DNA of 64,000 nucleotides. Origin: Loktanella sp. 3ANDIMAR09 (GTDB lineage Bacteria; Pseudomonadota; Alphaproteobacteria; Rhodobacterales; Rhodobacteraceae). How positions within the stretch are numbered: position 1 is the first letter of the stretch; each line of letters starts with the position of its first letter. Both the position numbers and the translations under genes were made by a program. The stretch spans positions 186,001 through 250,000 of the forward strand of contig NZ_LJAK01000001.1 in NCBI RefSeq assembly GCF_001420005.1. Direction: 5' to 3'. The notes under the pieces were generated by a model. That model was not told the origin of the DNA. It saw only the letters and a program-made list of their open reading frames with translations, and did not search any database. This document shows positions 15,051 to 37,196 of the stretch, piece after piece.

Positions 15051-15136
15051 GCCCAGGTGGCGGAATGGTAGACGCGCTAGCTTCAGGTGCTAGTACTGGC
15101 AACGGTGTGGAGGTTCGAGTCCTCTCCTGGGCACCA
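15051..15136 (+). tRNA. tRNA-Leu (anticodon CAG), CCA encoded
   Basis: The acceptor stem GCCCAGG (15051-15057) pairs with CCTGGGC (15126-15132), followed by A and an encoded CCA. The anticodon stem CTAGC/GCTAG encloses the loop TTCAGGT, giving anticodon CAG (codon CUG). A long variable arm, as expected for leucine tRNA, precedes the T-arm with GGTTCGAGTCC. The 3' 14 bases plus one base beyond are duplicated at 20122-20136, showing that the gene is the integration site of the island that follows. Confidence 0.97.
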
Positions 15137-15137
15137 C
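15123..15137 (+). repeat. Attachment site at tRNA-Leu 3' end (attL)
   Basis: The 15-base sequence TCTCCTGGGCACCAC, made of the tRNA-Leu 3' end including CCA, occurs identically at 20122-20136. With a tyrosine integrase between the copies, these are best read as the attachment duplication. The bases flanking the two copies are unrelated. Confidence 0.85.
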
Positions 15138-15249
15138 TTAAATCCAAATAGTTGAACGATAACAGCAATCTGGGCTAGGTGGCCTGCCGTCTATCCCCCT
15201 CTGCATCCCCCTTTCTGCATCCGCTGACGGCCTGTTGTTCGTCATGGGT

Positions 15250-15855
15250 TCAGCGGAATCGATGCACCCAGTCCATGATGCTGCCAAGGGCGTGCGCTTC
15301 GAGTGCGTCGTATTCTCTAACCAGACGCCAGTAGGTCGCGCGATGCATCCCCTTTGGGCGTCCCCAGTTCGATCCGTTGAAAATCCCGACAGGCCAGCCC
15401 AGCCTTTCGCGTAGCTTGTCGGCACGGCGCGCGGCACGGTCGCGTGCGCTTTCATTTTCGGATGGGTAGGCCAAACCGTGACAGTGCCGACAGGCAAAGA
15501 CAGCGCCGCCATAGAGTGTGGCGACCCTACGACCGCACCCTCGCGCTGGGCACAGGAACCACGCGCGGGTGCCGCCAAGGTGGCACGGGGTCCAGTCGAT
15601 CTGCACAGGGTAATCCATATCCCGCCAGTCACCGCCGTTTGTTCTGGTCCGATAGGTCAGGACAACATGCCCCGCCGCCGCCCTGACCATGATATCGCCC
15701 ATCCTCTGCCCAGCGCGCGACCACGCGAAAGAGCAGGTGCCGTTGCTTTCCAGCCAGCCATTGCGGGCTAGCTTGCCAATTTGCAGCGCCCGCATATCGT
15801 GGATTGTGGATCTGGTCCCGCATCGCAGGTAGGTGCCGCTTCCTATGCCGCCCAT
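15250..15855 (-). CDS. Island-borne zinc-ribbon protein of unknown function
   Basis: A protein of 201 residues beginning MGGIGSGTY. This start (15855) is chosen over an ATG three codons upstream because AAAGG lies about nine bases before it. The N-terminal half is basic and tryptophan-rich. The middle holds two cysteine pairs, WFLCPARGCGRRVATLY and FACRHCHGLAYPSENE (about residues 113-150), a likely zinc ribbon. The C-terminal part is a charged helical segment (RDRAARRADKLRERLG). I recall similar 'MGGxGSGR...CP..GC.RRV..LY' proteins as orphans in proteobacterial mobile elements, none with a known role. Nucleic-acid binding is plausible but unproven. It is the island gene nearest the tRNA. Confidence 0.75.
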   Translation of the reverse strand: MGGIGSGTYLRCGTRSTIHDMRALQIGKLARNGWLESNGTCSFAWSRAGQRMGDIMVRAAAGHVVLTYRTRTNGGDWRDMDYPVQIDWTPCHLGGTRAWFLCPARGCGRRVATLYGGAVFACRHCHGLAYPSENESARDRAARRADKLRERLGWPVGIFNGSNWGRPKGMHRATYWRLVREYDALEAHALGSIMDWVHRFR

Positions 15856-16274
15856 GTGTTTCATCCTTTTCGTCCAAATCGACTGGCAAGTTAGGGCGAT
15901 TAATCAAAGCACCGGACCCGCTTTTTTGTCTCCAAACTGACGGCATGGAAAACTACGACCAGCTCCGGTTTTCTTTTCGTCGTCGTCAGGCTTTGCGATA
16001 CCCCCCCCATACGCTTAAAGCCCCCGTTCATCGCGCCCCGTAAAACCATGTGCCTATGGCTAGATGTAGATATGTCCTAATGAGTGTGCCGCTTGGCAGG
16101 CCGCAAATGGCGCTGGGCGTCACAGTTATTGTGCGTGAATGTCCAAGGCCCGGAACCATGCACAAAATCAGTGACAAGGTATGCATGGCATTTGTGCGAG
16201 GCTTCTAAATTTTGAATAGAATTTAGTGAGCCTAACTTATAGCCTTCACTAAACGTAGGTTCGCGGGGCATGCC
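15856..16274. other. 419-bp gene-free spacer in the island
   Basis: No convincing gene on either strand. It contains a run of eight C at 16001-16008 and two overlapping inverted repeats at 16205-16253. It lies between divergently transcribed genes, so it should hold promoters for both. Possible short frames (for example one starting at 15945 on the plus strand, 32 codons) lack a Shine-Dalgarno sequence. Confidence 0.6.
16205..16253 (+). promoter_or_regulatory. Two overlapping inverted repeats upstream of the immunity-like gene
   Basis: CTAAATT (16205-16211) pairs with AATTTAG (16220-16226) over an eight-base spacer. TTTAGTGA (16222-16229) pairs with TCACTAAA (16246-16253) over sixteen bases. 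They share bases 16222-16226, so the two hairpins exclude each other. They end 21 bp before the ATG at 16275. This could be a pair of operator half-site arrays (repeated CTAAA/TTTAG) or an attenuator-like RNA switch. Confidence 0.5.
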
Positions 16275-16673
16275 ATGAGACAAATCGCATTTGCGTCAGC
16301 GTTGATGACAGTTCCCAGCCACGGCGCAACCCAAGAGCTTGTTACTGGCAATGATATCCTAAACGCATGTCGGACGATGAGCGACAGCATTGCGGTGGAG
16401 GCAGGCTTTTGCGTAGGTCACATCATCGGAACTTGGGAAGGTGCCAAGTTCGGTGCAGCAAGTGTCTTAAGTGCCGCTATGCCGGAAGCGACGGCTAGTG
16501 AACTTGAATCCGCCGTAAACAACTTTCTGAACGTGTGCCTTCCGTTAGAGTTCGAGTCGGGCCAGATGGTCGATTTATTCATGGTGCGCCTAGAGGAGCG
16601 TCCCGCAAGCAGACACGAAAGCGCCCGCTCTCTGCTGGTTGCGATGCTAAGCGAAACCTATCCCTGCGTTTGA
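16275..16673 (+). CDS. Rap1a/Tai immunity-like exported protein
   Basis: A 132-residue protein. The N-terminus MRQIAFASALMTVPSHGATQ resembles a short signal peptide, so it is probably periplasmic. The mature part follows the Rap1a/Tai immunity pattern: a first cysteine in 'DILNACRTM', then 'FCVGHIIGTWEG', 'NVCLPLEFESGQMVDLFMVRLEERP' and the terminal 'SETYPC' motif, giving four cysteines for two disulfides. In the known family such proteins neutralise type VI-secreted peptidoglycan amidases (Ssp/Tae4). No effector gene is adjacent, so this is an orphan. It is the only plus-strand gene in the island, is AT-richer than the flanks and has its own leader with inverted repeats. The family call is by pattern recognition; target unknown. 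Confidence 0.7.
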   Translation: MRQIAFASALMTVPSHGATQELVTGNDILNACRTMSDSIAVEAGFCVGHIIGTWEGAKFGAASVLSAAMPEATASELESAVNNFLNVCLPLEFESGQMVDLFMVRLEERPASRHESARSLLVAMLSETYPCV

Positions 16674-16724
16674 AGTCGCCTCCGGCCCAACCCCTCGCGC
16701 GCGTTTTGTTTTTTGGCTGTCCAC

Positions 16725-17144
16725 TTAGTCCCGACCGGGTCGGCTATTCGGTACAATACATGCGGGGGTTTTCCATTGCTTGAACGCCATAGACGCCTTG
16801 CCTCCGTTTACCGTGCGGGCCTCTGCCAGCGCCCATGTGGACGCGCGACCGACGCCTGACGGGCCTAGGTGCGGGGCACGGGTCATGTGGATCAACCCGC
16901 GTTCCTCTAGCATCTTGAACCACGGCCCGACCGTGTTGCGGTGGACGTTCAACGCAACCGCCGCGTCACGGTGGCTTAGGAATATGTCGCCATTGTTCGC
17001 ACCGTTGTAGCGCCGTTTCAGTTCGAGGTAGAGCGCGCGGGGGCCGGGGGGCAAGGTTGCCCATGCCCCCTGTGCTTGAAACCATTCCTCTAGGCGGACG
17101 TGACGACCGCCGCCGCCTTTGGCGTATCGTGCCTTGCCACCCAT
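16725..17144 (-). CDS. HTH/replication-type protein of the island cassette
   Basis: A 139-residue protein starting MGGKARYAKGG at 17144; an upstream in-frame extension is rejected because this ATG overlaps the previous stop by one base (TGATG). The middle reads 'ATLPPGPRALYLELKRRYNG', 'NNGDIFLSHRDAAVALNVHRNT' and 'FKMLEERGLIHMTRA', a winged-helix DNA-binding arrangement. The later 'GRASTWALAEARTVNGGKASMAFKQWK' is a pattern I recall in small alphaproteobacterial plasmid/island proteins annotated as replication or HTH proteins. Probably binds element DNA to control replication or transcription. Last gene of the overlapping cassette. Function inferred only. Confidence 0.7.
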   Translation of the reverse strand: MGGKARYAKGGGGRHVRLEEWFQAQGAWATLPPGPRALYLELKRRYNGANNGDIFLSHRDAAVALNVHRNTVGPWFKMLEERGLIHMTRAPHLGPSGVGRASTWALAEARTVNGGKASMAFKQWKTPACIVPNSRPGRD

Positions 17145-17314
17145 CAGCGTTTGTCCTGACAGTCGCAGCCAACCATGACGCGCAAGGCGACCACAGGGCA
17201 CCCACAGCCCCCCAGGTCGATCCATACGGCCTGTGCGGTGCCGTGTGCGACCTTGCGGGCCATGATGTGCCACTTTCCATTATGCCGGATAAGGCGCGTG
17301 TGTTTGTCAGTCAT
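17144..17314 (-). CDS. 56-residue microprotein of the island cassette
   Basis: Begins MTDKHTRLIRHNGKW and ends GCDCQDKR. It contains a hydrophobic core segment 'AQAVWIDLGGCGCPVVALRVMVGCDC' with two closely spaced cysteine pairs (GCGC and CDC). Its start overlaps the stop of the 33-residue gene by eight bases (ATGACTGA at 17307-17314), and its stop overlaps the next start by one base, so translation is probably coupled on both sides. No family recognised. Coding status rests on this perfect packing rather than on homology. Confidence 0.6.
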   Translation of the reverse strand: MTDKHTRLIRHNGKWHIMARKVAHGTAQAVWIDLGGCGCPVVALRVMVGCDCQDKR

Positions 17315-17408
17315 GCTTGCCCCCATAGTGCAGGGCCGCGACAAGGCGGGCTTGTGATGGTGTCATGCCATAGCGACGGCACAGGCGACGGATGCTTGCG
17401 GGGGTCAT
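17307..17408 (-). CDS. 33-residue microprotein of the island cassette
   Basis: A 34-codon frame beginning MTPASIRRLCRRYGM and ending AALHYGGKHD. It resembles an isolated helix-turn-helix: basic helix, YGMT turn, then 'PSQARLVAAL'. It starts inside the stop of the 94-residue gene (ATGA at 17405-17408) and overlaps the following microprotein by eight bases. I recall very similar 'MTPAxIRRLxRRYGLTxxQAxxLAxLxxGE' peptides in Rhodobacteraceae islands, but that is memory, not a search. Small enough to be missed by most gene finders. Confidence 0.6.
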   Translation of the reverse strand: MTPASIRRLCRRYGMTPSQARLVAALHYGGKHD

Positions 17409-17689
17409 TGCACACCCCCTTTGCCCAGCGCGCGCGCCGATCTGGGAAAACGTAGCTTGGTCCGGTCTGCATCCGCTTTCAGGGAATAGTGGGCCACGTT
17501 CTGCGGTCCGATGTATTCGACATGGATAGGCCAGCCGTAGCGGTGCCGCAGGCGATGAATGATTGCTGCCAACCGCCAGCCGTCCACCTCTTTGATTTCG
17601 GTGCGATGGTTGATGGTCTGGTTTGCCAGTAGCGCCTTGCAGGTCCAGAACACCTGCGAGTCGCTGGAGTAGGTTAAATCGTGTGTCAT
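17405..17689 (-). CDS. Small winged-helix DNA-binding protein (HTH_39-like)
   Basis: A 94-residue protein opening the four-gene overlapping cassette. The central segment 'LLANQTINHRTEIKEVDGWRLAAIIHRLRHRYGWPIHVEY' followed by 'NVAHYSL' fits the phage/plasmid helix-turn-helix family in which a conserved G-W/R-L-A-A-I-x-x-L-R motif forms the recognition helix and the wing ends in a Y-x-L strand. Likely an element regulator. The next frame begins within its stop. Family assignment is tentative but a DNA-binding role is likely. Confidence 0.65.
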   Translation of the reverse strand: MTHDLTYSSDSQVFWTCKALLANQTINHRTEIKEVDGWRLAAIIHRLRHRYGWPIHVEYIGPQNVAHYSLKADADRTKLRFPRSARALGKGGVQ

Positions 17690-17756
17690 GATGTCGTGCC
17701 TTTCAGTTGAAAGAGCAGGACGCCGGGTCTATGGTGTGTCTGCTAGAACGGTGCAC

Positions 17757-17795
17757 CACCCCCAGCGCCTGCGGTTATCCGCAAGTGCGGGGGTG
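17757..17795 (-). repeat. Nested inverted repeat between alpA-like gene and cassette
   Basis: Outer arms CACCCCC (17757-17763) and GGGGGTG (17789-17795) enclose inner arms TGCGG/CCGCA around TTAT. It lies just after the alpA-like stop on the minus strand and has no T-tract, so it could be an RNA stabiliser, a weak terminator or an operator between the two transcription units. Confidence 0.4.
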
Positions 17796-17798
17796 TTG

Positions 17799-17969
17799 TT
17801 ATTTCTGAGTCTTGGTCAGCGCCGCGTCGATATCGGCCTCGTTCCAATAAAGTCGCGCACCGAATTTGATCGGTTGCGGCAAACGGCCCAGCGCGATGTC
17901 GCGGTAAACGCTGGATCGGCTACGACCTCCGATCTTCGATTGCAGGTCAGAGAAAGAGAGGAAACGCAT
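17799..17969 (-). CDS. AlpA-family excisionase/regulator
   Basis: A 56-residue protein beginning MRFLSFSDLQSKIGGRSR, followed by 'SSVYRDIALGRLPQPIKFG' and ending with 'ARLYWNEADIDAALTK'. This is the complete AlpA-type MerR-like HTH layout: L-x-F-x-D-L-x-x-x-x-G, S-x-x-x-Y-R-x-I-x-x-G-x-x-P-x-P, then W-x-x-x-D-I/V. Such proteins act as directionality factors or activators of integrase in P4-like elements. GGAG lies seven bases before the ATG at 17967-17969. It is upstream of the overlapping cassette and downstream of the integrase and unknown gene, all on the minus strand. Confidence 0.85.
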   Translation of the reverse strand: MRFLSFSDLQSKIGGRSRSSVYRDIALGRLPQPIKFGARLYWNEADIDAALTKTQK

Positions 17970-18028
17970 CTTGATGCTCCGTGGTTATTCACAGAGCCAA
18001 CATGAGCAGATTGATCGATTAGCGCATG

Positions 18029-18790
18029 TTACAAACCAACTTCGCTTTTTCCCTCGATGGAAGAATAAGCCATAGACATTGCTAACACATCGGCGCGAAA
18101 CGTAGCGAGGCGGCTTTCCCAGTTTTGGCGCTCGGATGGCATATTCGGCCTGTAAGTTAGCTGTAGTGCATCGACATCCCCAATGAATGAGAAGCCATCT
18201 CGCAGCTTGCGCTTGCTAGGGTGCACCAGAATATTTTTAACTTCGGAGTATTTTGTTGAACGTCCACACCAACTGAGGCTTTCGGCAACCGCATCACAAG
18301 CACTCAGGGTTGGACTACCTTCGTCATTTCGAGTGCGAGTAAGGCCAAATTTTTCTGATACGCAGTTCACCAAAAGCCAAATAAAATATGTTTCTAAGAA
18401 GATTTTCTTTGCGGGCCGATTGGCGAGGGTCGGCCTTTTAAGTGAGCCCAGTAAAATTTTGGAAGCAAAATCTCTGAGAGGCGGTGGCATTTCAGCGCCA
18501 CTAGAGAGCAACTCAGCAGATAATTTTGCGCAAACATCGAACGCTTCCGCATTACGATCCGCTAGTTCTACAATGATGGTAGCAATCTGCGACTTTATCT
18601 CAAATTCTACGCTTTCAAGTCTTGCCGCATTTGTGAATGATTCCATCTTAATACAAGCATTCGCGACACCTGAAGCGCGGATCAAGAATGCATCCATCAC
18701 AGACGATTCTGGTAGAGCAAATGACCCATTTTTTATCAAGTCATCAACTTCGTCACAGACGAACATCGTAGCCGCACGAAAATTATCCAT
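18029..18790 (-). CDS. Unknown 253-residue island protein coupled to integrase
   Basis: No family recognised. Largely helical by composition, no signal peptide or membrane helix apparent. Notable parts are 'KKIFLETYFIWLLVNCVSEKFGLTRTR' and a C-terminal 'SEVKNILVHPSKRKLRDGFSFIGD'. The gene is visibly more AT-rich than its neighbours and uses codons rare in the rest of the window, so it is foreign. Its ATG (18788-18790) overlaps the integrase stop by eight bases, so it is translated after the integrase from the same message. Possible roles are integrase accessory protein or cargo (defence or superinfection control); the sequence does not decide. Confidence 0.7.
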   Translation of the reverse strand: MDNFRAATMFVCDEVDDLIKNGSFALPESSVMDAFLIRASGVANACIKMESFTNAARLESVEFEIKSQIATIIVELADRNAEAFDVCAKLSAELLSSGAEMPPPLRDFASKILLGSLKRPTLANRPAKKIFLETYFIWLLVNCVSEKFGLTRTRNDEGSPTLSACDAVAESLSWCGRSTKYSEVKNILVHPSKRKLRDGFSFIGDVDALQLTYRPNMPSERQNWESRLATFRADVLAMSMAYSSIEGKSEVGL

Positions 18791-19976
18791 GTGCCCTTAA
18801 ACCTCGCAAGACATTGGTTTCAAGTGAAACCATCCGGCTCCATCGTTCCATCAGCGCCCTCCGTTGCTCCAAGAAGTCTGTCCGACGATACGCCCGTTCA
18901 ACTGCACCGCCCGTGGTGTGGCCTAGGCAAGTCTCTGCCACGTCATGCGGGGTTTGTGTTGCCTCTGCCGTCCAGTCGCGGAATGATGACCGGAACCCGT
19001 GAGGACGCTCTGACAGGCCGCGCCGATCCATCAGGGCAGTCATGGTCATGTCGGATATGACGCCACGCTTGGCCCCCGGAAACAGGAACCCGTCACGGGC
19101 GAATTTGCGGGCCTCTGCTATCACGCGCTGGGCCTCTGCCGACAGCGGCACCCGAAAATCAGACGTGGCCCCCAGACGGCCTTTCATCGCCGCTGCGGGG
19201 ATGGTCCAGATATCGCCGTCGATCTGGTCAACGTGCAGATTGCGCAACGGGCCGGACCGCACCGCCGTCAGGATAAGCAGCCGCAGGGCCAGTTCCGTCA
19301 CGCTGCCCCCCAGCGACTGATAGAAGGCGGGCACGTCGCGCCAGTTCATCGCGGGGACATTCGTGACCGTGTGCCGTTGTTTGCCCAAGAGCGCCTTGGC
19401 CTTGTCCGTCGCTTGCAGGTCAACGTCCAAGCCCAGCGCCGCCGCATGTTTCAGGACAATGCCCAGACGGTTCATTGCTTTGCGCGCGGTTTCCGCCTTG
19501 GTGTGCCAGATGGGGGCCAACGTGTCGCGTATGTCGCGTTGGTCAATATCGGCAACGGGGACGCGGCCCAGCTTTGGCAGGACGTGCAGTTCCAGCGGGG
19601 AAAACCAGCGGCCTGCCGTGCCATCGCCTTTCAGTTCGGCCTTGCGGCTTTCAAAGGCGTCCAGCGCGATATCTGACAGCATATGGATATTGCGCGCCGC
19701 CTCGCGCTGCTGGCGTTCACGTTCCTTGATGGGGTCCAGCCCTTGCCGCGCGACCGCGCGGGCCTTTTCCGCCGCCTCTCTCGCTGCTTTCAGTGATACG
19801 CTGGGGAAAGACCCTAGGCCCATCTCGCGCCGCCTGCCGTGGACCGTCACACGCAACACCCATTGCGCGCCGCCGTCCTCGCGCTTTACCAGCCAAAGCC
19901 CAGCGCCGTCCGCATGTTTGCCCACGGGAGCGGCCTTCACCCCGGATGCGCTTAGGCGGTTCGTCGCATGTGCCAT
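18783..19976 (-). CDS. Tyrosine-type integrase of the island
   Basis: A 397-residue site-specific recombinase of the P4-like type. The N-terminal arm-binding domain (DUF4102-like) reads 'KHADGAGLWLVKREDGGAQWVLR...GLGSFPSVSLKAAREAAEKAR'. The core-binding domain follows (about residues 100-200). The catalytic domain shows Arg in 'TAVRSGPLRNL', HxxR in 'RPHGFRSSFRDW', His in 'CLGHTTGG' and the nucleophile Tyr in 'VERAYRRTD' (near residue 370). GGA lies six bases before the ATG at 19976. It lies near the attR end, its 5' end facing attR, and presumably recombines the 15-bp tRNA-Leu core. Appears intact, so excision may be possible. Confidence 0.93.
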   Translation of the reverse strand: MAHATNRLSASGVKAAPVGKHADGAGLWLVKREDGGAQWVLRVTVHGRRREMGLGSFPSVSLKAAREAAEKARAVARQGLDPIKERERQQREAARNIHMLSDIALDAFESRKAELKGDGTAGRWFSPLELHVLPKLGRVPVADIDQRDIRDTLAPIWHTKAETARKAMNRLGIVLKHAAALGLDVDLQATDKAKALLGKQRHTVTNVPAMNWRDVPAFYQSLGGSVTELALRLLILTAVRSGPLRNLHVDQIDGDIWTIPAAAMKGRLGATSDFRVPLSAEAQRVIAEARKFARDGFLFPGAKRGVISDMTMTALMDRRGLSERPHGFRSSFRDWTAEATQTPHDVAETCLGHTTGGAVERAYRRTDFLEQRRALMERWSRMVSLETNVLRGLRAHG

Positions 19977-20121
19977 ATTTCGTCCACCTCTCTATCCCCC
20001 TCAACATATGGTATGCCGTGGGGTGTTGTGAAGTGCCGTGATACAGTGAATGACTTGAAAAGCGTTGAAAAACAGGGGTGCGCGGTTGCGGTGGTGCATC
20101 AAGATATAGGGATTAGATGCG

Positions 20122-20136
20122 TCTCCTGGGCACCAC
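20122..20136 (+). repeat. Attachment site at distal end of island (attR)
   Basis: The second identical copy of TCTCCTGGGCACCAC. It is a free-standing fragment of the tRNA-Leu 3' end with no tRNA body before it, 145 bp beyond the integrase start. The 261-bp gap 19977-20237 holds this site and presumably the integrase promoter on one side and the cardiolipin synthase promoter on the other. Confidence 0.85.
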
Positions 20137-36374: not shown

Positions 36375-37196
36375 ATGTTTCAACCCGATCTTCGCAGAAC
36401 ACGGACACGCACCGTCTTTGGGATGATGGAATTGATCTATCACAGTGCCGTCCGCGACATCCGCAAGAGTCACCGCAACGCGCTGATGGGTCTGGTTCTG
36501 AACATTTTCCAGACCGTGCTGTTCGTGCTCAGTTTCTATGCGATGTTCATGCTGCTGGGGATGCGGGGGGCAGCTGTGCGTGGTGATTTCCTGCTGTACA
36601 TCATGTCGGGTATTTTCCTGTACATGAGCCATACCAAGGCGATGAACGCGATCGTCCAGTCCGAAGGCCCGGCCAGCGCGATGATGCAACACGCGCCGAT
36701 GAACACGGTGATCGCGATCTGCGCATCGGCCTTGTCGGCGCTGTATCTTCAAATCCTGTCGATCCTCGTGGTGCTGTTTTTCTACCATGTCCTGTTCACG
36801 CCCGTGTATATCCACCAGCCGATCGGCGCGCTGGGCATGGTGATTCTGGCGTGGTTTTCTGGCTGCGCCGTGGGCACCATTTTCCTGGCCATCAAACCCT
36901 GGATGCCTGAATTCGCGAAAATCGGCAGTTCGATCTACGGTCGCGTGAACATGATCGCCAGCGGCAAGATGTTTCTGGCCAATGCCCTGCCTGCGTCGAT
37001 GCTGGCGATGTTCGACTGGAACCCGCTGTTTCACTGCATCGACCAGATGCGGGGTTTCGTGTTTGAAAACTATCACCCCTATAATTCCAATGTCGGCTAC
37101 CCGATCAAGGTTGCGATTGTCCTGCTGGTGCTGGGCCTGCTGGGTGAATTCTATACGCGGCGTCAGGCCTCTGCTTCGTGGAACGCAGCACGCTGA
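36375..37196 (+). CDS. Capsule-type polysaccharide ABC exporter permease (ABC-2/KpsM-like)
   Basis: A 273-residue membrane protein with about six helices in the ABC-2 permease layout. Start at 36375 with AAGG seven bases upstream. Features are the amphipathic N-terminus, 'GLVLNIFQTVLFVLSFYAMFMLLGM', 'FLLYIMSGIFLYMSHTKAMN' and the family's C-terminal 'WNPLFHCIDQMRGFVFENYHPYNSNVGYPI'. Such proteins pair with a KpsT-type ATPase to export polysaccharide across the inner membrane. No ATPase gene is adjacent (dnaK follows), so the partner must be elsewhere. Divergent from cysQ-kdsB. Confidence 0.83.
   Translation: MFQPDLRRTRTRTVFGMMELIYHSAVRDIRKSHRNALMGLVLNIFQTVLFVLSFYAMFMLLGMRGAAVRGDFLLYIMSGIFLYMSHTKAMNAIVQSEGPASAMMQHAPMNTVIAICASALSALYLQILSILVVLFFYHVLFTPVYIHQPIGALGMVILAWFSGCAVGTIFLAIKPWMPEFAKIGSSIYGRVNMIASGKMFLANALPASMLAMFDWNPLFHCIDQMRGFVFENYHPYNSNVGYPIKVAIVLLVLGLLGEFYTRRQASASWNAAR

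Follow-up and report, generated by a model that had tools for sequence, protein, structure and literature searches.

The 64,000-nucleotide stretch of Loktanella sp. 3ANDIMAR09 analysed here (contig NZ_LJAK01000001.1, positions 186,001 to 250,000; hereafter the window) carries a 4,999-bp insertion in a tRNA-Leu(CAG) gene, bounded by identical 15-bp direct repeats. On balance, we incline to regard it as a minimal phage-satellite-like element of the kind represented by phage-inducible chromosomal islands (PICIs) and phage-inducible chromosomal minimalist islands (PICMIs), with an initiator gene and an origin (rep-ori) instead of a primase, and belonging to a Rhodobacterales lineage. We take this view because 25 of 56 loci yielded bounded elements with a largely fixed gene order, because an open reading frame (ORF) overlaps the integrase gene int as in PICMIs, and because one gene product has an initiator-like fold and an uncoded site recurs with it. 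A viral contig and two further loci (L267 and L278), which join the same type of core to portal, capsid or terminase genes, are another reason.

The integration of the element in tRNA-Leu(CAG) is nearly certain. The original prediction, made from the sequence of the window, had placed copies of the tRNA-Leu 3´ end at both borders, and they are located as claimed: the core TCTCCTGGGCACCAC has exactly two exact copies in the 3.67-Mb genome, the reversed pattern none. With up to two mismatches, the window contains three matches against 0.21 expected. Chance as the source of the repeats is ruled out by the exact genome count, by this expected-match figure and by an empty site. When the flanks of the element are joined at the core, they align as a single block to genome G003 of the same genus (1802/1802 bases, 94.6% identical); with the remaining seven loci of the genus, the left flank alone or separate pieces aligned, and the clean empty site thus comes from one genome. 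The empty tRNA-Leu site that had been proposed for a search therefore exists, and relatives do not all carry the element. As a side observation, the attB core and the native right flank occur twice, in inverted orientation, at the end of contig C15 of genome G006 beside tRNA-Leu(CAG) (L068:63-91 and approximately 1390-1404), perhaps through an inversion or an error of assembly.

The element is small and its genes, with the exception of a Rap1a-family gene that is probably cargo, are all read in one direction starting from int (Table 1). The arm-binding, central and catalytic domains of the integrase all exceed Pfam cut-offs, and the stretches RSG, HGFR and GH...Y, which we take to be catalytic, are present in order. 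The AlpA-like protein also passes the Phage_AlpA cut-off (24.7 versus 21 bits), so the earlier description of an intact integrase accompanied by an AlpA-like gene holds. ORFs were called mechanically, and start sites, hence overlaps, are uncertain. Nine ORFs of the element were scanned, and this is the scope of all absences of gene families given below. No structural, packaging, relaxase or primase family was found in Pfam at E <=1, and alpha primase, psu and sid families are missing from the Pfam, PHROGs and NCBIfam results. A PADLOC scan for defence systems gave a single weak match, of AlpA to mad1 (E 0.0012). The idea of a minimal integrative element without transfer genes, as first proposed, is well supported by the attachment repeats, the empty site, the presence of int and AlpA and the lack of any transfer family.

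Table 1. Features of the element in tRNA-Leu(CAG), in window coordinates
Feature	Position	Strand	Basis	Remarks
tRNA-Leu(CAG)	15051..15136	+	ARAGORN; Rfam	Integration target; 3´ end is the left core copy
attL core	15123..15137	+	Repeat search	15-bp direct repeat TCTCCTGGGCACCAC
Zinc-ribbon protein, up to 204 aa	15250..15864	-		Start probably at 15855 (MGGIGSG); gene nearest to the tRNA
Conserved uncoded site	16050..16124	-		Proposed replication origin; arms TGTGACGC / GCGGCACA, tail GACATATCTACATCTAGCCATAGGCA
Rap1a-family protein, 132 aa	16275..16673	+	Pfam PF18602, E 4.4e-13	Opposite strand, between HTH gene and conserved site
Winged-helix (HTH) protein, 139 aa from ATG	16725..17144	-	PHROG, model	Proposed replication initiator
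56-aa ORF (p56)	17144..17314	-		Similar ORFs in several relatives
94-aa protein (p94)	17405..17689	-	Weak PHROG 4973 match, E 0.0029	Between AlpA and HTH gene
AlpA-like protein, 56 aa	17799..17969	-	Pfam PF05930, E 2.2e-5	Regulator / excision factor
253-aa protein (p253)	18029..18790	-		Start overlaps int stop by 8 nt (ATGGATAA); position of PICMI iolg
Tyrosine integrase, 397 aa	18783..19976	-	Pfam; motifs	Intact
attR core	20122..20136	+	Repeat search	15-bp direct repeat TCTCCTGGGCACCAC

The element is not alone. The zinc-ribbon protein and the helix-turn-helix (HTH) protein each served as a query against 394 genomes of the host's family, and matches at E 0.001, weak ones included, occurred in 51 and 53 genomes, respectively. 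Fifty-six loci entered a test for tRNA genes and direct repeats, namely the window, 33 stretches from the whole-genome searches and 22 from a genome-contig scan (two of the 56, L078 and L216, overlap each other). A bounded element was defined as one of 2.5-9 kb whose bounding repeat, no shorter than 14 bp, lies at a tRNA 3´ end; 25 loci gave such an element and 31 gave none. Integrase is present in all 25, the HTH gene in 23, AlpA in 21, the zinc-ribbon gene in 15 and the family of the 253-aa protein in six. Islands sharing these genes, which had been proposed for a search, exist in related genomes. As a rule, the elements read from attR begin with int and a gene coupled to it; alpA comes next, and one or two small genes separate it from the HTH gene. 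Cargo follows, in many cases with the zinc-ribbon gene behind it, and attL with the tRNA closes the element; some elements have extra genes beyond the zinc-ribbon gene. In 18 of the 25, an ORF on the same strand overlaps the int stop; the overlap is 1-17 nt long, according to which start is assumed. In one element the ORF begins 3 nt past the stop, and in six there is none. The 253-residue protein, which had been singled out as a gene to look for, is a member of one family that occupies the position after int in the six elements carrying it. HTH-bearing elements sit in genes for tRNA-Leu (CAG, TAA), tRNA-Ser (TGA, CGA, GCT, GGA), tRNA-Thr (CGT, TGT) and tRNA-Ala (GGC). The element of G006, bounded at tRNA-Leu(TAA), has an integrase 93% identical to that of the window. 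What recurs, then, is int, AlpA and the winged-helix, initiator-like gene with a conserved site nearby, usually together with the gene overlapping int, while the zinc-ribbon gene is frequent and dispensable. The earlier suggestion of small unknown proteins as the core is thereby retained in part. We recognised no published description of this family in the literature on AlpA satellites, Rhodobacterales islands, PICMIs and int-overlapping genes, as judged from titles and opening parts of abstracts, which leaves its absence from print unproven.

The sizes of these elements bear on a different explanation. Gene transfer agents with a capacity of about 4 kb are typical of Rhodobacterales, and a genomic island without a dedicated carrier might be spread by them, or by natural transformation; the small capacity would favour small elements. 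The 23 HTH-bearing elements span 3,767-8,274 bp and 13 of them are shorter than 5 kb, as such a route would have it. However, the other ten measure 5.0-8.3 kb, and a carrier-free island would have no need for a replication module and AlpA. We consider this explanation quite improbable.

The original label of an HTH cassette does not do justice to the winged-helix gene, whose modelled product rather resembles a replication initiator domain. The AlphaFold2 model has a mean predicted local distance difference test score (pLDDT) of 84.8, and the best matches in PDB bear titles of an initiator or a Rep-DNA complex: 4pql (E 6.8e-4), 4pt7, 5kbj and 4pta, which presumably are all RepA_N proteins. DnaD appears at rank 37. 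Weak PHROG matches (E 0.007-0.12) point to DnaD-like helicase loaders and replication initiation proteins. An initiator function for this protein is a lead offered by the model.

The second component of the presumed replication module is a conserved uncoded site of 75 bp, overlooked in the original prediction. Its copies consist of arms like TGTGACGC...GCGTCACA followed by a near-invariant AT-rich tail, GACAYATATACATCTAGCCATAGGCA; in the window copy, seven of the eight arm pairs are formed and the tail reads GACATATCTACATCTAGCCATAGGCA. With up to five mismatches allowed, 18 of the 23 bounded elements that have the HTH gene contain the site. An exact 16-mer from it has 11 copies in the 394 genomes (one for the reversed control), and a 24-mer pattern, one mismatch being allowed, was found 19 times, spread over 16 of 374 genomes (reversed control, 0). 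Of these 19, 17 have an HTH match no more than 675 bp away, and for 16 the distance is 170 bp at most; the window accounts for the largest distance, 675 bp, because the Rap1a-family gene sits between. In one description of Gram-negative PICIs, ori is located immediately 3´ of rep and iterons flank an AT-rich stretch (PMC6092414). The initiator-like gene, the site near it and this PICI arrangement together are the reason why we read the pair as rep plus ori: the site would be the origin and the HTH gene its rep.

The other two of the 19 copies are found near a contig start and in a remnant beside IstA/IstB-like genes. The latter, in genome G195 (L239:6725-9853), comprises a 179-aa gene and one site copy next to IstB/IstA-like genes (named by eye), and resembles an interrupted element of the family; that it might be a phage was considered and set aside. 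With its core missing, and with some other copies of the family having an HTH gene broken by stops or an integrase that is split, one could ask whether the element of the window is likewise a decayed, immobile remnant. That is very improbable: its core genes are open, its repeats are exact and a close relative has the empty site.

The arms of the site suggest a stem, and we evaluated it in an alignment of 26 copies (31 were listed, three with five mismatches were left out to give 28, and two more were dropped). In the named stem, which was chosen after the sequences had been viewed, 83.6% of cells are paired, as opposed to 20.8-53.1% in slid controls, and four of eight pairs show changes on both sides. 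Among 500 shuffles, the values of the stem were reached by two for pairing, by four for the covariation score, by 33 for double-change pairs and by 203 for pair types; those for double-change pairs and pair types, two of the five measures used, are thus unremarkable. RNAalifold on a MAFFT alignment of the copies gave no consensus structure. The per-copy test is weak for many copies, and the longest perfect stem in the window copy has 4 bp. An intrinsic terminator was rejected by eye, the stem having no T-run after it. A promoter of the cargo is unlikely as well: cargo lies on either side of the site, and in L220 the site is inverted.

An inverted repeat followed by a near-invariant tail is also the form of an origin of transfer (oriT). 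The element could then be a conjugation hitchhiker, integrated and equipped with oriT only, at which a relaxase from a plasmid in the same cell makes the nick, and the occurrence of the zinc-ribbon gene on small plasmids would agree with that. Yet the site accompanies an initiator-like gene in the 17 cases above, no relaxase family is found in the element (an integrative mobilizable element would carry a relaxase or a known oriT), and the same site occurs in a contig that also encodes portal, capsid and terminase proteins. Hitchhiking on conjugation is, in our opinion, improbable.

The contig in question, L243, was the only one with the conserved site in two exact-pattern scans of the IMG/VR viral contigs. 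Its genes follow in the order int, small genes, an HTH-looking gene at the AlpA position, a relative of the HTH gene, the conserved site, portal, capsid, head-completion, TerS and TerL, the last five all above Pfam cut-offs; another gene resembles a tape measure by eye. L243 could be a small prophage. Its integrase is 24.5% and its HTH relative 38.8% identical to those of the window, and the conserved site is the sole stretch of at least 15 bases shared with the window element. Such sharing, together with the position of the site about 0.6 kb ahead of the portal gene, might indicate that the site is no origin but a cos or pac packaging site taken from a helper phage, in which case the element would still be a satellite. 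We hold this to be unlikely, since TerS and TerL of L243 are more than 6 kb away from the site, the scans of IMG/VR found one contig only, and the site comes after the initiator-like gene, not after a terminase.

To the viral contig we can add 20 loci with distant HTH relatives, chosen by hand from the weaker HTH matches. An integrase-like ORF is present in 17 of them and an AlpA-like ORF in ten; in L267 and L278, int, AlpA and HTH precede a portal or TerL match. A few others have genes that look by eye like restriction-modification. The viral contig and these loci thus indicate that related cores occur nearly by themselves, with cargo, or coupled to a capsid cassette. A bolder idea, which we put forward only tentatively and with less confidence than the satellite nature of the window element, is that one movable core (Int, the int-coupled gene, AlpA, the initiator-like protein and the conserved origin) drives both capsid-free satellites and capsid-encoding relatives, which would interconvert by swaps past the origin. 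It would form a Rhodobacterales lineage for which we found no name in print.

The life cycle we envisage for the satellite-like element is as follows. Int would bring the circular form into the 3´ end of tRNA-Leu(CAG) without damage to the tRNA; the insertion itself is shown by the repeats and the empty site. Judging from published genetics of PICIs and PICMIs, a helper signal would raise AlpA, whereupon Int and AlpA, perhaps with p253, would excise the element. The winged-helix protein would then start replication at the conserved site, as suggested by the initiator-like model, the closeness of site and gene in relatives, and the inverted half-sites with their AT-rich tail. Finally, the copies would exit the cell in particles of the helper phage.

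Several observations weigh against this reading. No helper, cos/pac site, TerS or capsid-remodelling gene was identified for the window element, which has no primase either, and it has no 15-mer in common with three 20-kb regions around portal genes in its own genome. (These genes, on contigs C2, C11 and C20 of G000, loci L284-L286, belong to candidate prophages or to a gene transfer agent.) A search of 50,697 phage records matched neither the zinc-ribbon protein nor the HTH protein. Only one initiator fold match is better than E 0.001, and regulators such as MepR and CodY rank close behind, ahead of DnaD. The conserved site is missing from five of the 23 HTH-bearing elements, and in the window the Rap1a-family gene parts it from the HTH gene. 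It is also found in none of the 20 distant-HTH loci, L267 and L278 included, three of the 20 being cut within 212 bp of the HTH gene. In L243, the integrase is distant and the gene at the AlpA position, HTH-like by eye, is no AlpA by Pfam or profile; no single locus combines int, a profile-level AlpA, HTH, the site and capsid genes. Excised circles were not found among 31 stretches, 27 of them whole contigs (two contigs twice), a set mostly chosen for the zinc-ribbon gene and ill suited to the purpose; eight of these stretches (seven distinct) have end overlaps, and they carry plasmid-type genes.

How does the element compare with known satellites? P4-like satellites are characterized by alpha primase, psu and sid, and capsid-forming PICIs carry their own capsid, portal and terminase genes. 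L243 and two loci of the family approach the latter in that portal, capsid or terminase genes are joined there to an int-HTH core; the window element differs in having none of the three. Capsid-forming PICIs are named in PMC11389934. PICMIs of Vibrionaceae are similar in size (about 5-6 kb) and consist of int, a gene overlapping int by a few nucleotides, alpA, small genes and cargo; they too have short direct repeats, varied families at the overlap position and, as far as described there, no capsid-remodelling genes (PMC10803314). In contrast, PICMIs reside beside fis and encode a DUF3987/DUF5906 primase, whereas the window element resides in tRNA-Leu and has no such primase; an initiator-like gene and the site take its place. 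The overlapping gene iolg is found in 21 of 35 PICMI subfamilies, and PICMI115 needs it for excision (PMC10803314). By analogy, the 253-aa protein may act in excision like iolg.

The Gram-negative PICI EcCICFT073 shares with our element one-way transcription from int, AlpA, an attachment site with the integrase, and accessory genes; its rep has an adjoining site of repeated half-sites and an AT-rich stretch, to which the initiator-like gene and the conserved site of the window element, with the Rap1a-family gene between them, may correspond (PMC6092414). PICIs have Pri-Rep proteins, however, in place of which the window element has an initiator-like winged-helix domain and no primase family. 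Moreover, induction and packaging of PICIs were demonstrated (PMC6092414), while the window element is known from its sequence. The I55-class islands in tmRNA (transfer-messenger RNA) genes of Pseudomonas, carried by jumbo phages, combine a tyrosine integrase with AlpA, 14-bp repeats at a tRNA-like gene, defence cargo and wide distribution, with no recognised transfer genes; they are larger (the region they share measures about 18 kb) and have int and alpA at opposite ends (PMC12595487). By the features tested, membership among PICMIs or P4-like satellites is rejected, and a strict PICI fails on the primase. The original statement that the gene set is unlike any named satellite family is therefore right as to gene content, which departs from PICMI and P4 definitions, but the layout does follow PICIs and PICMIs as these are described in print (PMC6092414, PMC10803314).

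Searches with the zinc-ribbon protein gave nothing in Pfam or PHROG up to E 1, and its fold has no counterpart in PDB at E 0.001 or better. The protein is found repeatedly in alpha-, beta- and gammaproteobacteria, and outside these classes too. Its role as a phage hallmark is unsupported: against no phage record and six viral-contig loci stand 441 genome-contig stretches (confirmed out of 496 candidates, 80 of which were kept) and 26 of 72,556 plasmid records. From 113 loci, 106 unique ones remained after removal of seven duplicates. A tRNA gene lies within 2.2 kb past the gene start in 33 of the 106, and a same-strand integrase lies upstream within 8 kb in 33 as well, many loci being cut by contig ends. 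In 31 of the 106, mostly from beta- and gammaproteobacteria, there is a member of a protein cluster whose representative contains Toprim and DUF3987. Loci such as L117, L152 and L158 from these classes combine AlpA, a Toprim/DUF3987-type protein and the zinc-ribbon gene, several of them just before a tRNA, and are possibly a related satellite group. The gene is also present on small plasmids of Rhodobacterales, Psychrobacter and Solidesulfovibrio and on circular-looking contigs (L005-L011, L072, L077, L111, L114, L115, L119, L124 and L126), and a match exists in a Haloferax plasmid. Several plasmids have two genes ahead of it, one a small HTH gene and the other differing greatly in size. Because it is found in integrated elements and plasmids alike, a helper in replication or maintenance would fit; in the window element it is possibly accessory. 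Elsewhere in the window, at 36938-37091 on the minus strand, there is a match to the Rfam family Cis2_sRNA (Ruegeria cis2 small RNA; 72.9 bits).

Most satellites that have been studied well are those of Vibrio, enterobacteria and Gram-positive cocci, and Rhodobacterales are an important marine group. If our assumptions are true, a compact and recurring lineage in Rhodobacterales extends the satellite world, and with it comes a zinc-ribbon family that has no match in Pfam or among solved folds and recurs beside tRNA genes and on small plasmids. The 75-bp site and its one-gene candidate initiator are directly testable, and they may reveal links between capsid-free and capsid-bearing elements.

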